A stretch of DNA of 64,000 nucleotides from Candidatus Nanohalococcus occultus (lineage in GTDB: Archaea > Nanohalarchaeota > Nanosalinia > Nanosalinales > Nanosalinaceae), in contig NZ_CP104395.1 of NCBI RefSeq assembly GCF_029207735.1, forward strand, positions 124,001 through 188,000, written 5' to 3'. The translations under genes and the position numbers were made by a program. The notes under the pieces were generated by a model. The model did not search any database, was not told where the DNA came from, and worked only from the letters and a program-made list of their open reading frames with translations. Shown here one piece after another: positions 39,525 through 57,751 of this stretch. The first letter of the stretch is position 1. Each line of letters starts with the position of its first letter.

Positions 39525-39544
39525 GAGGAGGGAATTTACTCCTC
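39525..39544 (-). terminator. Terminator-like hairpin over the EF-2 stop codon
   Basis: GAGGAG-TAAATTCC-CTCCTC on the minus strand: 6-bp stem with the TAA stop in the loop, followed by the pyrimidine-rich TCTTCTTTTTCTC. The T run makes it a plausible transcription terminator. Confidence 0.55.
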
Positions 39545-41722
39545 TACTTGTGGCATTTCTTGTTTCATGCCTTTGCGTTCTCGGATCTCCATCATCTTCT
39601 CTTCCTGTAGAGCGCGCTGCATTGGCTCGTAGATCAGGTCGACAAGACTGTAGAATCCTTTACCGTTCGTAGCTGACTTCAGTGCTGCTTCGAATCCGAA
39701 CAGTTCCTCGACAGGTAGCTTACACTGGATGATAGCTGAGTCTCCTTCCTCGTCCATGTCGATGATGTCTCCACGGCGGTTGTTGACCTCTGTCATCGCA
39801 TCTCCCATTGTATCGGATGGTGTATCGATTCTGAGGATCTGCTTTGGCTCGATCAGCTGAGGTCCTGCGTTCAGGAACCCGTTTTTGATCGCTCCTTTTG
39901 TTGCCGGGATCATCTGTGCTGGTCCTCTGTGGATAGCATCCTCGTGTAGCTTTGCGTCGTGAAGCTTGACTTTCAGACCGATTACTGGCTCGTTTGCCAT
40001 AGGTCCTTCATCACAGAACTCGTGGAAAGCTGTTACCAGGTATTCCTGGATTTCACGGAGGTTCTTGATACCTCTGGATGAGTTGACGAAGACGTTTTCC
40101 TCGTAAACTTCCATGATGTTGTCTGCTTCGTCCTGGTCCATTCCGTGTTCTACTAGTGCGTCACGGACTTCTGTCTGGTCGTCGGATTCTCTTTGAAGAT
40201 CTGCGTACTCTTCTTTGAGGAAGTTACGTAGCTCGTCGTCGATAGGTTCGACTGAGATCTCGAGTTTGTTGTGCCGGTTAGGGGACTTTCCGACTCTGAC
40301 ATCGCTTGCTTCACTGATTCCTTCACGGAATACAACGATAGGCTCGGAAACGTTGATGTCGATTCCTTTCTCTTCGAGGTGTCTCTCAACTTTTGCCTCG
40401 ATGTGTAGCTCTCCGAGTCCGGAAACCTTTGTCTCTCCGGTCTCTTCGTCGATGTCTACCTTGATTGTGTTGTCTTCCTTGGAGCGTTTACGGAGTGTTT
40501 CGATCAGCTTTGGAAGATCTGATGTTCTCTTCGGCTCGATCGATTTTGTGACAACAGGTTCGAATACGTGTTCGATCTGCTCGAATGCTGTGATTTCTTC
40601 GTCGCCTTCCATGATGAAGGTCTCTCCTGTTGAGAAGTCAGGTCCTGTGATTGCCGCGATGTTTCCTGCTGGAACCGAGTCGATGTTCAGCTTACGTGGT
40701 CCTGAATAAATTCCGACCTGCTGTGCGCGTTCTGTCTTCTGAGATCCTAGTCCGTAAAGCTGGTCTCCCTCGCTTACTGTTCCGGAGAAAAGTCGTGCTG
40801 TTGCGATGGTTCCTGCGTGTTCATCGTCTTCAACGTTTGTTACAACTCCGACAAGCGGTCCATCTGCGTTCTGCTCTGCCATTGACCGGCCGACATCTGT
40901 ATCAGGGTCTCCTGGCCATACAGCTGGGATTCTGTAACGTGCGGATTTTCTCGGGTCTTCGAGGTGTTCTACAACCATGTCAAGTACGACTTCCTCGATC
41001 GGTGCTTCCTCACGAAGTCCTTCGTGGTCTCCTTCGTTTACTTTCTCGATGATGTCTCCGAACGTGATGCCGGTGTCCTCCATGTAAGGAACGCTGATAG
41101 CCCAGTTTTTCAGTGCGGAACCGAATGCGACTGTTCCGTCGTTTACAGCCATTGACCATTCTTCAGCTGTTTCTTCGTCTGCGTACTTACGTAGAGCTGT
41201 GTTTACTTCACGGATGATCTTGGTGAATCTTTTCTGCATTTCTTCGGGTGTCAACTGCATCTCTTCGATCAGTCGATCTACCTTGTTGATGAATAGTACT
41301 GGCTTAACTCCCTCGTTAAGTGCCTGCTTCATGACGGTTTCCGTCTGAGGCATAACTCCGTCAACTGCGTCGACAAGTACTACTACGCCGTCTACTGCAC
41401 GCATTGCTCGGGTAACGTCTCCTCCGAAGTCAACGTGGCCTGGAGTGTCGATCAGGTTGATCAGGTGGTCTTCTCCGTCGTGTTCGTGGACCATTGAGAT
41501 GTTTGCGGAGTAGATTGTGATTCCTCTTTCCGCTTCCTGGTCGTCGAAGTCCATGAAACGCTGGTCTCCTGCCAACTTATCCGATATCATACCTGCTCGG
41601 GCAAGAAGGTTGTCTGTTAGTGTTGTTTTACCGTGGTCGATGTGCGCCGCGATCGCGATGTTCCGGATGTGTTCCGGGTCGTTGATCACGCCTTTGATTG
41701 CTTCAAGAGCTTTATCTGACAT
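39536..41722 (-). CDS. fusA: Translation elongation factor EF-2 (aEF2)
   Basis: Translocation GTPase, 728 residues. AHIDHGKTTLTDNLL (G1), DTPGHVDF (G3) and NKVDR (G4) are intact. The domain IV tip reads DAIHRGPAQMIPA, with His598 in the position that is modified to diphthamide. The probable last enzyme of that pathway is encoded at 55742. Expressed from its own promoter in the 312-bp gap after rps7. Confidence 0.98.
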   Translation of the reverse strand: MSDKALEAIKGVINDPEHIRNIAIAAHIDHGKTTLTDNLLARAGMISDKLAGDQRFMDFDDQEAERGITIYSANISMVHEHDGEDHLINLIDTPGHVDFGGDVTRAMRAVDGVVVLVDAVDGVMPQTETVMKQALNEGVKPVLFINKVDRLIEEMQLTPEEMQKRFTKIIREVNTALRKYADEETAEEWSMAVNDGTVAFGSALKNWAISVPYMEDTGITFGDIIEKVNEGDHEGLREEAPIEEVVLDMVVEHLEDPRKSARYRIPAVWPGDPDTDVGRSMAEQNADGPLVGVVTNVEDDEHAGTIATARLFSGTVSEGDQLYGLGSQKTERAQQVGIYSGPRKLNIDSVPAGNIAAITGPDFSTGETFIMEGDEEITAFEQIEHVFEPVVTKSIEPKRTSDLPKLIETLRKRSKEDNTIKVDIDEETGETKVSGLGELHIEAKVERHLEEKGIDINVSEPIVVFREGISEASDVRVGKSPNRHNKLEISVEPIDDELRNFLKEEYADLQRESDDQTEVRDALVEHGMDQDEADNIMEVYEENVFVNSSRGIKNLREIQEYLVTAFHEFCDEGPMANEPVIGLKVKLHDAKLHEDAIHRGPAQMIPATKGAIKNGFLNAGPQLIEPKQILRIDTPSDTMGDAMTEVNNRRGDIIDMDEEGDSAIIQCKLPVEELFGFEAALKSATNGKGFYSLVDLIYEPMQRALQEEKMMEIRERKGMKQEMPQVEE

Positions 41723-42034
41723 TTTATTTTTACACCTATACTATAAGTACAGAACCTGATCCAAGTTTTAAAAACAGTTTCCGATTTGCGGCTCTTCTTA
41801 CAGGAAAAACCTGCGGAAAACTTTCTTGCTATATGGTTTGAATAGATCAACAAATCTTAGAGGGATATAACAGCGGTCGAAAACCTAATGAGTTGCTCCC
41901 TAAAGGACTCAGCCTGCTGAGTTTATCTATAATCTTCCGAAACTTACCTGAATATGATTTAACTGTTGGCGGTTAGCCGGAAGAGTTCGTTGAACAAGTA
42001 GGAAATATAGATAAGTAGGAAAAAGGTGTGGAGC
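41723..42034. other. Gap between rps7 and fusA: promoter and a small hairpin
   Basis: 312 bp with no convincing gene. On the minus strand CTGTTTTTAAAACTT (about 41763-41777) is a TATA candidate for fusA, leaving a leader of about 20 nt. ACTCAG-CCTG-CTGAGT (41907-41922) is a perfect 6-bp hairpin readable on either strand. Several A/T-rich stretches follow. The rest shows nothing recognisable; a small RNA cannot be excluded. Confidence 0.4.
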
Positions 42035-53894: not shown

Positions 53895-54587
53895 CTAAGG
53901 GTTTAGCATATCTGAATCACGTCTGAAACTGTAAACTTTACGGCCCACTACAAGGTGATCCAGTAGCTCGACTCCCAGAACTTCTCCAGATACCTTCAAA
54001 TTCTCGGTGAAGTCTCTGTCCGCTTCGGTCGGCTCCGATTTCCCGGAAGGATGGTTGTGGGCGATTACGATCGCAGCAGCGTTTTTAGAGACCGCTGACC
54101 TCAACAAGTCTTCTGAGCTTATCTCAACCGAGCTAACGCCTCCATCGAAGGTCTCTCTGCCTAAAACCTCGTTACCGGAGTTCAGGAAAAACACTCTGAG
54201 TTTCTCGCTGTCAAGCAGCTTCAAGTCTTCCAGCTCTGATTCAACGTCTGAAAGGCTTTCCAGCGTTTCTCTTTTCTCCCGGCGCATCCTGTTTGCGATC
54301 TCTGCCATCGCCTTGATCTGTCCGGATTTTACCGTTGAGACTCCATCGAAATCCTCAAGCTCCGAGCGGGAAACGTTGAGAAGCCCTTGAAACGAGTATT
54401 CGGAGAGAATCTGTCCGGAAAGCTGTTTTACGTTCTTGCCCTGGGTTCCTGTCCTAATTATAATAGAGAGCAACTCGGTGTCAGTTAAAGACTCGGCGCC
54501 GTGATCGTTAAGCTTCTCCCGGGGCTGTTCTGACCTTGGAACGTCTTTGATTGTGTAGTCCACGTCGAATCTAGACCTGTTTTTCAT
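53895..54587 (-). CDS. RadC-like JAMM-domain protein
   Basis: 231 residues from the ATG at 54587, where family homology begins (TIKDVPRSEQPREKLNDHG). The N-terminal helix-hairpin-helix-like part (ESLTDTELLSIIIRTG) is followed by a JAB/MPN domain with the metal motif IAHNHPSGKSEPTEADRD (His-x-His...Asp). Despite its name, the role of RadC in repair is unproven. A longer in-frame extension upstream overlaps the divergent nucS and is rejected. Separated from nucS by 78 bp. Confidence 0.9.
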   Translation of the reverse strand: MKNRSRFDVDYTIKDVPRSEQPREKLNDHGAESLTDTELLSIIIRTGTQGKNVKQLSGQILSEYSFQGLLNVSRSELEDFDGVSTVKSGQIKAMAEIANRMRREKRETLESLSDVESELEDLKLLDSEKLRVFFLNSGNEVLGRETFDGGVSSVEISSEDLLRSAVSKNAAAIVIAHNHPSGKSEPTEADRDFTENLKVSGEVLGVELLDHLVVGRKVYSFRRDSDMLNP

Positions 54588-54665
54588 TAAAACTAGTTCT
54601 GTGGTTTTGACAACAGGTCGGCTCCAGGGAGTAGCTAGAAATAAGTCACGGCTGATCACAACTCC

Positions 54666-55451
54666 ATGGAAAGAATTGTTCAAAACCCGGAGTTCGAGGA
54701 AACCAAACAAATAATCGAAGAGTACGCCTCGAGAAAGTACACCTTACAGATAAACGGCCTATGCTCGGTTAACTACCGAGGAAGAGCTAAATCAAAGCTT
54801 GATCGCGGTGAAAGAATTGTCATCAAAAAGCAGGATTCGGCGCTACTGGTTCACGGACCGGAAAACTATCAGCCGAAAAACTGGCAGCCGGAAGTCGATC
54901 GCTGGAATGTCCAAATCGATGAGGAAAACGAAGAACTGGTAATGGAGAGTAAAAGAACTTCTCCGGAGGAGCTAGTGGAGATAAGGTTCGAACGCATCGA
55001 CTTAGTGACTGTCGACCAGTTAGTCGATAAATCCGAGCTGAAGATCCGTGGACACGAAGTAGATATACATGAGGCTGTCGAGGAAGAACCTGAGATTGTC
55101 GAAGACGGCTTGAAAGTGGTTGAGAGGGAAAAGGAAACGCCGGCAGGTTTCATAGATGTCTTTGCCAGAGACACTGAGGACAAATATGTTGTGATAGAGG
55201 TCAAGAGAAACCCTGATTACAACACGGTCTTGCAGCTCCAGCGGTACGTTGATGAGATCGAAGAGGAGTTCAGCGGGAAGATACGTGGAATTCTCCTGGC
55301 TCCGAAGATGACGGACAAGATACTTGACTATCTAGAGGATCGTGGACTTGAGTTCGTCGAGGTCGAGATGGAGGATGTTATTGCGTCTTATGAGTCGCTC
55401 AATCAGAGTCAGAAAGGTCTGAGCGATTTCGATCCAAGTTACGAGACCTAA
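54666..55451 (+). CDS. nucS: Mismatch-specific endonuclease NucS/EndoMS
   Basis: Cleaves both strands at mismatches; it replaces MutS-MutL in many archaea and actinobacteria. The C-terminal RecB-like nuclease has GFIDVFARDT and KYVVIEVKR, giving Asp164, Glu178 and Lys180 as catalytic residues, then LQLQRYVDEI. The N-terminal DNA-binding domain has CSVNYRGRAKSKLDRGER. 261 residues. Complete, and likely the main mismatch repair enzyme here. Confidence 0.96.
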   Translation: MERIVQNPEFEETKQIIEEYASRKYTLQINGLCSVNYRGRAKSKLDRGERIVIKKQDSALLVHGPENYQPKNWQPEVDRWNVQIDEENEELVMESKRTSPEELVEIRFERIDLVTVDQLVDKSELKIRGHEVDIHEAVEEEPEIVEDGLKVVEREKETPAGFIDVFARDTEDKYVVIEVKRNPDYNTVLQLQRYVDEIEEEFSGKIRGILLAPKMTDKILDYLEDRGLEFVEVEMEDVIASYESLNQSQKGLSDFDPSYET

Positions 55452-55741: not shown

Positions 55742-57751
55742 ATGTGTGGCATAGCAGGAGCGAAAAACAAACAGGCTGTAGAAAACACTGTTGAACACTT
55801 AAAGCACAGAGGTAGCTCCTGTAAGGTAAAAGAGTACGGAGAGTTCTCACTCGCACACGTACTTCACTCTATAGTCGGAGAAGTCGAACAACCGCTGAGA
55901 GAAGACGGCATAATATCAGCTAACTGCGAAATATACAACTGGAAGGATTTAAACGAAAAATACGGCTGGGAAACAGAAAATGATGCTCAAACATTGTTGA
56001 AACTACTAGAGAAAAAAGGAGTATCTGCTTTAGAAGAACTTGATGGCATATACGCATTCGCATACTTCAAAGACGGCGAACTGATTCTGGCCAGAGACAA
56101 GCTCGGTATGAACCCTATCTGGTACGCTGAAACTGGCGAAGACTTTGTTTTCGCCTCGGAAAAGCAAGCCTTGGAAAAGGAGGATTTCAAGCCCAGAGAG
56201 CTTCATCCGCGCAGAATACTGAAATATAACTTGGAAACCGGGGAAGTCTGTTTTGAGAACCGAGAGTTCTTCGAGATCGATGTAGACGAATCCAAGGAAC
56301 TCGAGGAGGCCGCAGAGGAGGTCAAAGAACTTTTCGTTGAAGCAGTGGAAAAGCGGGTTCCGGATACAGATCTGGCGCTGCTTTTCTCAGGCGGAGTGGA
56401 TTCGACTATGGTCGCGGCCGCTCTACAGGAACTGGACGTTGAATTTACCTGCTACACTTCAGGAATACAGCACGGTAACGTAAACGCCCCTAGAGACATG
56501 GAATGGGCTAAGAAAGTCGCCGAAGAGATGGATCTTGAGTTAGAAAGCTATGAGGCTTCACTGGAGGAGGTAGAAACTGAGCTGCCGAAGATAACAGACT
56601 GGATTTCAAGCACTTCGGTGGTGAAAAGCGGCGTCGCACTTCCTTTCCACCTGGCCTTACGACGAAACTCTTACGGAGTTTCTGGAGCCGCAGAAGATCC
56701 AGGATCTTCAACGTGCGGAGATGAAAAAGTGGTTATGACTGGTCTTGGCTCCGAACAGCTCTATGCTGGCTACCACCGACACCAGGGATATCTCAACAAA
56801 GAGTGTCTCTCCGGACTTCGTTCCTTGTTCGAAAACGATCTTTACAGGGACAACGTCGTGTCTTTCAGGAACGGATACGAGCTTCGCGCACCTTTCCTTG
56901 ACCACGAGCTTATAGAACACGCATTAACGCTTCCAGAGGGGTTTAAGGTAAAAGACGAGTACAGGAAATACGTTGTTAGGCTGGCAGCTGAAAAACTCGG
57001 TGTGCCGGAAGAGGTCGCATGGCGAGGCAAGACTGCGGCCCAGTACGGCAGCAATTTTGACAAGGCAATCTCCCGGCTCGCTAAAAACAAAGGATTCGAT
57101 CACAAACAGGGATATCTCAACAGCTTTCGTTCGAAGGAAAACAATCGGCTTGCCGCGCTGACCTCCGGTGGAAAGGATTCGAACGCAGCGCTTTACAGGG
57201 CAGCCAGACGAAATAATGAGATTAGCTGTCTTGTAAATCTTTCAAGCGGTAACAAGGAAAGCTACATGTTTGACGCCCGTAAAACCTCCGAAGAAATGGA
57301 AAGACAGTCGGAGATAACTGGTTCGCCGCTCCTTGTTCAGCAAACCGATGGGGAAAAGGAAAAAGAACTACAGGATCTCGAAAAAGCTCTTGGAAAAGCT
57401 ATAGAACAGTACGACGTGGAAGGCGTGATCGCAGGTGCGATAGCTTCAACTTACCAGCGTGATCGGGTTGAGAAAGTCGCTGAACGTCTCGGATTAAAGG
57501 TATTTGCTCCGCTCTGGCAGGAAAATCAGGAAAACTACATGCGTTGGCTTGTAAGAGAGGGCTTCGGAGTACAGATAACCCATGTCGCGGCCCGCGGACT
57601 TGAGGAAAACTGGATTGGAACTGTAATCGATGAAGAAAACGTAGAGGAGCTGATAGATCTATCACGGGAATATGGGTTTAACGCGGCCGGTGAAGGAGGA
57701 GAGTATGAAACAAGGGTCAAAAACTTCCCGAAGTCTATAACTGGTCTCTAA
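55742..57751 (+). CDS. Fusion of asparagine-synthetase-like protein and diphthine-ammonia ligase (Dph6)
   Basis: 669 residues in three parts. Residues 1 to about 175: class II glutamine amidotransferase with nucleophile Cys2 (MCGIAG) and NCEIYNW. About 195-450: asparagine-synthetase ATP pyrophosphatase with FSGGVDST (215-222), but the usual GADELFGGY reads GSEQLYAGYHRH, closer to the ASNSD1-like group. About 468-669: Dph6, with SGGKDS (475-480) and AAGEGGEYET (648-657). Dph6 converts diphthine on EF-2 to diphthamide with ATP and ammonia. The fused amidotransferase could supply that ammonia from glutamine; this is inference. EF-2 with the target His is in the same window. Confidence 0.9.
   Translation: MCGIAGAKNKQAVENTVEHLKHRGSSCKVKEYGEFSLAHVLHSIVGEVEQPLREDGIISANCEIYNWKDLNEKYGWETENDAQTLLKLLEKKGVSALEELDGIYAFAYFKDGELILARDKLGMNPIWYAETGEDFVFASEKQALEKEDFKPRELHPRRILKYNLETGEVCFENREFFEIDVDESKELEEAAEEVKELFVEAVEKRVPDTDLALLFSGGVDSTMVAAALQELDVEFTCYTSGIQHGNVNAPRDMEWAKKVAEEMDLELESYEASLEEVETELPKITDWISSTSVVKSGVALPFHLALRRNSYGVSGAAEDPGSSTCGDEKVVMTGLGSEQLYAGYHRHQGYLNKECLSGLRSLFENDLYRDNVVSFRNGYELRAPFLDHELIEHALTLPEGFKVKDEYRKYVVRLAAEKLGVPEEVAWRGKTAAQYGSNFDKAISRLAKNKGFDHKQGYLNSFRSKENNRLAALTSGGKDSNAALYRAARRNNEISCLVNLSSGNKESYMFDARKTSEEMERQSEITGSPLLVQQTDGEKEKELQDLEKALGKAIEQYDVEGVIAGAIASTYQRDRVEKVAERLGLKVFAPLWQENQENYMRWLVREGFGVQITHVAARGLEENWIGTVIDEENVEELIDLSREYGFNAAGEGGEYETRVKNFPKSITGL

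Follow-up and report, generated by a model that had tools for sequence, protein, structure and literature searches.

Domain architecture of the fusion gene

The analysed window is a stretch of 64,000 nucleotides from Candidatus Nanohalococcus occultus. It contains, on its forward strand, a single uninterrupted frame that begins with ATG and encodes a protein of 669 amino acids followed by a stop codon (Table 1). The Pfam domains are arranged in the order GATase_7 (residues 49–145), Asn_synthase (residues 193–351 and a second stretch) and Diphthami_syn_2 (residues 469–660, 189 bits). They correspond to a class II glutamine amidotransferase (GAT) domain, an asparagine synthetase-like (AS-like) PP-loop domain, and the diphthine–ammonia ligase Dph6. 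Among the NCBIfam models, the C-terminal part scores 227 bits with Dph6_archaeal (TIGR03679), above the cut-off of 197.3, and the N-terminal part scores 221.3 bits with asn_synth (TIGR01536), below the cut-off of 267.1. The joining of a class II GAT, an asparagine synthetase-type domain and a complete Dph6 in one frame, as described in a sequence-only reading of this DNA, is thus borne out. That reading listed Cys2, the GSEQLYAGYHRH loop, SGGKDS and EGGEYET, all of which are present, but it overlooked the altered pocket of the GAT domain and the perfect PP-loop of the middle domain.

By sequence, the solved structures closest to the first 460 residues are those of ASNS/AsnB; for the Dph6 part they are Pyrococcus furiosus PF0828 and P. 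horikoshii PH1257. The AlphaFold2 model of the fusion, built with 59 sequences, is compact, with a mean pLDDT of 90.7 and a pTM of 0.90. In Foldseek comparisons its two N-terminal domains match ASNS, AsnB and beta-lactam synthetase as one unit, and the C-terminal domain matches Dph6 structures. The GAT and PP-loop domains resemble those of AsnB/ASNS (1ct9, 6gq3, 8sue) in both fold and relative placement; the TM-score of 1ct9 with the fusion model is about 0.77 on target.

Table 1. Features of the fusion gene and of the EF-2 gene in the window. Residue counts refer to 80 proteins, including that of the window itself.
Feature	Position	Strand	Evidence or conservation
Complete fusion gene (GAT, AS-like PP-loop domain, Dph6)	55742..57751	+	Pfam, NCBIfam, relatives, AlphaFold2
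Class II glutamine amidotransferase (Ntn) domain, residues 1–175	55742..56266	+	GATase_7, 3.7e-20; fold of the AsnB N-terminal half
Cys2, predicted nucleophile	55745..55747	+	79/80 in the initial set
Leu41-His42, replacing AsnB Arg49-Leu50	55862..55867	+	L 80/80, H 80/80; alignment with AsnB
Asn61-Cys62-Glu63, equivalent to AsnB Asn74-Gly75-Glu76	55922..55930	+	each 80/80
Asn80-Asp81 (Asp81 equivalent to AsnB Asp98)	55979..55984	+	80/80
AS-like PP-loop (HUP) domain, residues 186–460	56297..57121	+	Asn_synthase, 8.3e-36; Foldseek: ASNS/AsnB/beta-lactam synthetase
PP-loop SGGVDS, residues 216–221	56387..56404	+	SGGxDS 80/80 in the initial set
GLGSEQ loop, residues 334–339	56741..56758	+	AsnB Glu348 = Leu335, Asp351 = Glu338
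RGKTAAQYGS region, residues 428–437 (coordinates for 430–437)	57029..57052	+	Lys430 = AsnB Lys449; K430 79/80
Dph6 (diphthine–ammonia ligase) domain, residues 468–664	57143..57733	+	PF01902, 9.8e-56; TIGR03679; aligned to P. furiosus PF0828
Dph6 PP-loop SGGKDS, residues 475–480	57164..57181	+	
Dph6 EGGEYE motif, residues 651–656	57692..57709	+	E651, G652, G653, E654, E656 80/80
EF-2, substrate protein of Dph6	39539..41740	-	Diphthamide His codon 39929-39931 within DAIHRGPAQ

Active-site residues and the diphthamide pathway

The GAT domain has the hallmarks of its class, namely a cysteine directly after Met1 (79/80) and the equivalents of AsnB Asn74 and Asp98 (N61 and D81, each 80/80). In AsnB, Arg49 holds the glutamine by its carboxylate. 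This arginine is absent from all 80 proteins, those with intact GATs included: Leu41 takes its place throughout, and the position of AsnB Gly75 is occupied by a cysteine (Cys62), again in all 80.

The middle domain shares the PP-loop and the Lys449 equivalent with AsnB, as the GAT domain shares Cys2. Residue 338, the equivalent of Asp351, is always Asp or Glu. The proteins differ from AsnB by the two replacements in the GAT pocket, by the frequent lack of a GAT domain among relatives of the fusion, and by residue 335: the equivalent of AsnB Glu348 is Leu, Ser or another residue, and never Glu, either in the 80 proteins or in the wider set.

In the Dph6 family, ATP activates the carboxylate of diphthine on EF-2 and ammonia amidates it. 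The C-terminal domain has the SGGKDS and EGG(D/E)xE motifs and the EF-2 contact residues proposed for PF0828. With the stand-alone archaeal Dph6 proteins (PF0828, PH1257; TIGR03679) it has SGGKDS and EGGE(Y/F)E in common and aligns over the full length, although the TIGR03679 model extends roughly 27 positions beyond its end; unlike the present protein, the stand-alone enzymes have neither a GAT nor an AS-like domain. On its single contig of 948,351 bases the genome encodes one copy each of Dph6, Dph2 and Dph5, together with an EF-2 that has the diphthamide histidine. The identification of Dph6 is supported both by the TIGR03679 score and by the presence of the rest of the pathway, and the histidine within DAIHRGPAQ that had been noticed in the EF-2 of the window is confirmed.

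The yeast enzyme offers a parallel. Amidation of diphthine by yeast Dph6 in vitro is reported in work cited in PMC3585130. Yeast Dph6 carries fused RidA-type (YjgF) domains, essential in yeast, that human and archaeal Dph6 lack; as in the present fusion, the added domains were proposed to supply ammonia, but they have an unrelated fold and are C-terminal (PMC3585130).

Distribution in archaea

A genome scan yielded 80 loci in Nanohaloarchaea, Woesearchaeota/Nanoarchaeota, Diapherotrites-type archaea, Altiarchaeota and Methanosarcinaceae. The fusion occupies a single frame at 79 of them, in DPANN archaea and in Methanosarcinaceae, the exception being L011 with two frames. A frameshift or an assembly join as the origin of the fusion is thereby ruled out, since the frame is open here and at the 79 loci, complete chromosomes among them. 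Nothing speaks for such an artefact, to which we assign practically no probability; the odd cases (L011, L040, L227) all lie at other loci. In one of these, L040:16-3150 (+), a frame of 1045 residues places an MMR_HSR1/DRG-type GTPase ahead of GAT, AS-like domain and Dph6, and may be a real fusion or a merger of frames.

Among 28 genomes of the organism's own phylum, families f1 and f5 have the fusion; in f2 and f3 Dph6 stands alone, with no AS-like partner. Dph6, Dph2 and the AS-like gene are all missing from the five genomes of family f4 (G003–G007).

Further surveys used the N-terminal profile in the Methanolobus phylum (295 genomes) and the Dph6 family in the Woesearchaeota (236 genomes) and Diapherotrites-type (87 genomes) phyla; the phylum labels derive from the titles of the seed loci, and many loci come from draft assemblies. 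Among the 150 Dph6 matches listed for the Woesearchaeota phylum, 84 are shorter than 320 amino acids (stand-alone), 13 have 320–560 and 53 have at least 560; the corresponding numbers for the 84 matches in the Diapherotrites-type phylum are 52, 11 and 21. An AS-like gene adjoins the short Dph6 in only two of 20 Woesearchaeota-phylum loci picked for short Dph6 frames, and it lies far from Dph6 in some genomes (G188, G144, G117). The AS-like domain and Dph6 are fused in at least four archaeal groups. The AS-like partner of Dph6 is therefore common but not universal, and it is not universally required, because many archaea, including f2 and f3, have Dph6 without an AS-like protein.

In a tree of AS-like domains, which includes a provisional E. 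coli AsnB sequence, the Dph6-linked domains are separate from archaeal AsnB and from a large family, not linked to Dph6, that has a GQGADE loop. This uncharacterised family (L132–L163, Methanolobus phylum) has a KKAxQY(G/S)T tail, and some of its members, of about 294 residues, have no GAT. A Woesearchaeota genome with the fusion also encodes, at L155:5114-6634 (+), a stand-alone GAT and AS-like paralogue of 507 residues.

The joint absence of Dph6 and Dph2 from f4 suggests that diphthamide has been lost in a nanohaloarchaeal lineage.

Decay of the GAT domain and retention of the PP-loop domain

In total, 168 AS-like proteins are linked to Dph6 by fusion or adjacency. Of the 163 that could be classified, 101 have an intact GAT domain, 49 a degenerate one and 12 none, and in one the GAT is split off; five are unclassified, L040 and L227 were set aside, and the automatic assignments were corrected by eye (L042, L082 and L231 are not degenerate). 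Separate neighbouring genes for the AS-like protein and Dph6, mostly overlapping, occur at L110/L124, L111/L125, L127–L131 and L154. In some of the fusions and pairs with a ruined GAT, Thr (L172), Gly (L127, L131) or Tyr (L166) stands in place of Cys2; in others pocket residues are lost or the domain is unrecognisable (L180–L183). Fusions of the AS-like domain and Dph6 without any GAT, 477–589 residues long, are found in two DPANN phyla (L214–L216, L218–L220, L222–L224; L257–L263, L266). By Pfam, L216 consists of Asn_synthase and Diphthami_syn_2 with no GAT. No GAT-like frame was found upstream of these fusions in the DNA fetched around their loci. In L217 the GAT is an upstream frame of its own, 159 residues long, and L246 and L247 have AS-only genes beside Dph6. 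The eight fusions L257–L263 and L266, from another DPANN phylum, are additional to the 163 and bring the GAT-less set to 20 proteins.

On a midpoint-rooted FastTree phylogeny the losses of the GAT fall into clades of 43 (support 0.96), seven (1.0), five and two proteins and three single proteins (L219, L228, L229). The GAT was likely lost several times independently, the exact number being limited by the rooting and by weak nodes.

The PP-loop domain behaves differently. Throughout the 49 GAT-degenerate and 20 GAT-less proteins, S216, G218, D220, S221, D252, D/E338, R413, K430 (49/49 and 20/20), Q434, Y435 and G436 are unchanged, and K402 and K409 (K409/R) almost so. The SGGxDS motif is kept in 44 of the 49 (SAGxDS in five) and in 19 of the 20, G217 being replaced by Ala in five proteins and by Ser in one. 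The AS-like site is not wholly conserved: K295, E380 and D387 drift upon loss of the GAT, as would fit positions on the acceptor or the ammonia side, with shared ancestry as an alternative. Pairwise dN/dS between close pairs is about 0.045–0.12 for the AS-like domain, close to that of Dph6 (0.015–0.11) and mostly below that of the GAT domain (0.06–0.25). The AS-like domain is under strong purifying selection. The model of a GAT-less fusion has good domains and an uncertain packing (pTM 0.65).

Several variants stand apart. At L156:5274-7577 (+) a GAT-less fusion of the AS-like domain and Dph6 has an additional C-terminal MoCF_biosynth (molybdopterin-binding) domain. At L171, L174, L194 and L195 (genomes G290, G092, G056 and G099) the AS-like domain precedes a degenerate Dph6 whose PP-loop is broken or whose score is weak; these genomes also hold a separate intact Dph6, which suggests that the degenerate copy is a paralogue without catalytic activity, tied to the AS-like domain. 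A Gly-to-Ser change in the Dph6 PP-loop was considered as a mark of AS-linked proteins and dropped, as the GAT-less L257 and L259–L261 have SGGKDS.

Possible roles of the AS-like domain

The AsnB–DUF71 (Dph6) fusion was described in 2012 by de Crecy-Lagard et al. (PMC3541065), whose examples include Methanohalophilus mahii, Methanosalsum zhilinae and the nanohaloarchaeon 'Ca. Nanosalinarum sp. J07AB56'; the three-domain order, GAT-II, Asn_synthase and DUF71, is identical to that observed here. The same paper proposed that the GAT supplies ammonia from glutamine and suggested that this ammonia goes to both the AsnB and the Dph6 sites. A reviewer, Aravind, asked there which reaction the AS-like PP-loop domain catalyses, and both the origin of the ammonia for diphthamide and the role of the extra PP-loop domain were left open in its discussion of the fusion. 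The N-terminal part was taken as AsnB in that discussion; the discussion does not mention versions with an absent or dead GAT, the lost AsnB residues or the survival of the PP-loop domain after the GAT. The fusion and the ammonia proposal are thus not new. The GAT as an ammonia supplier is a plausible reading, published earlier, and some lineages, perhaps that of the present protein among them, may obtain their ammonia from it.

The comparisons above show that the AS-like part, and not the glutaminase, is the partner kept beside Dph6 by evolution. On balance we favour, with some reserve, a diphthamide synthetase joined to a two-domain enzyme derived from AsnB, in which the PP-loop domain is the conserved partner of Dph6 and the GAT an optional source of ammonia. 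The Dph6 score and motifs, the presence of Dph2, Dph5 and the EF-2 histidine, the repeated fusion or adjacency of the two genes, the GAT-less fusions, the residues preserved in every GAT state, the low dN/dS of the AS-like domain, the compact model and the joint lack of Dph6, Dph2 and the AS-like gene in f4 count in its favour. Against it stand the many archaea with Dph6 and no AS-like protein, the in vitro activity of yeast Dph6, the AS-like genes distant from Dph6, the drift of K295, E380 and D387, and the uncertain packing of the GAT-less model. In the scheme that we infer for catalysis, for ATP binding by the middle domain and for ammonia transfer, Dph6 would bind diphthine-bearing EF-2 and ATP, activate the diphthine carboxylate and amidate it with ammonia. 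Where the GAT is intact, as here, the Cys2 domain would hydrolyse glutamine or a similar amide and, to judge from the architecture and fold, the ammonia would move on to the AS-like domain, as it does in AsnB. The preserved PP-loop, metal-binding acid and lysine suggest that this domain binds ATP. Beside Dph6 it would have a necessary role of its own, be it the delivery or gating of ammonia, the holding of EF-2 or a separate adenylation, and relatives with a lost or ruined GAT would use free ammonia and still retain it. A tentative extension, which we consider possible but somewhat doubtful, is that two PP-loop ATP enzymes serve diphthamide, the AS-like domain being an active second subunit or performing a further ATP-dependent step on EF-2, with the glutamine supply of the GAT optional.

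The sequence-only reading, essentially the model of the 2012 paper, had ammonia from glutamine channelled from the GAT to Dph6 and regarded the middle domain as a relay or remnant. The intact Cys2, Asn61 and Asp81 of the present protein, the intact GAT in most of the linked proteins (101/163), the AsnB-like fold and domain order, and the pTM of the fusion model are all consistent with it. The view of the middle domain is not supported, given purifying selection (dN/dS near 0.05–0.1) and its retention, with a preserved PP-loop, beside Dph6 where the GAT is degenerate or absent. In such lineages a relay would have nothing to pass on. With its ATP-side residues kept and a low dN/dS, the domain is thus not a remnant, and GAT-less proteins offer no GAT for which it could serve as a conduit. 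The replacement of AsnB Arg49 by Leu in every one of the 80 proteins also argues against this model, which we hold to be unlikely.

Two other explanations place the substrate of the AS-like domain outside diphthamide. According to one, it amidates or adenylates such a substrate and is linked to Dph6 through shared ammonia or co-regulation only. Variation of the acceptor-side residues K295, E380 and D387 against fixed ATP residues, the large unlinked sister families and the genomes in which the AS-like gene lies away from Dph6 would all agree with this, but fusion or adjacency recurs specifically with Dph6 in several groups and f4 lost the AS-like gene together with Dph6 and Dph2; we judge this explanation rather improbable. 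According to the other, asparagine is still produced by the first 460 residues, and the ammonia is shared with Dph6. The AsnB fold, the PP-loop and the Lys449 equivalent are indeed retained, and no further Asn_synthase gene was found in the organism's own genome. That genome does, however, contain two GatB_N genes of the GatB/GatE type, so that tRNA-dependent amidation can account for both Asn and Gln on tRNA. Together with the sub-threshold TIGR01536 score and the loss of Glu348, these genes speak against asparagine synthesis as the main function, which we reject, and since the AS-like domains also stand apart from archaeal AsnB in the tree, a bifunctional enzyme appears very unlikely. The earlier opinion that the middle domain is not an asparagine maker is probably right, given the GatB/GatE homologues and a Glu348 that is never kept.

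Relatives with an absent or dead GAT amount to natural deletion experiments that separate the two proposed roles, ammonia source and PP-loop, and the role of the PP-loop thereby becomes testable with one mutant series.

Comparison with ASNSD1 and a neighbouring gene

As a lead, a provisional sequence of human ASNSD1 (Q9NWL6; 643 residues) resembles the fusion in its GAT and AS-like domains, in the GYxRH and K-x-A-x-Q-(Y/F)-G-S motifs and in AHVLH within the GAT; unlike the archaeal proteins, it is not fused to Dph6. In a tree with this provisional sequence it branches, with weak support, outside both archaeal AS-like clades, including the Dph6-linked one. Orthology with ASNSD1 thus receives no specific support, and the hint at a role for ASNSD1-like proteins drawn from this locus is weak. 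No paper treating ASNSD1 together with diphthamide was found in the open-access literature.

Elsewhere in the window, a RadC-like JAB protein (UPF0758) is encoded at 53895-54710 (-) in this archaeon, adjoining a gene for the NucS endonuclease.
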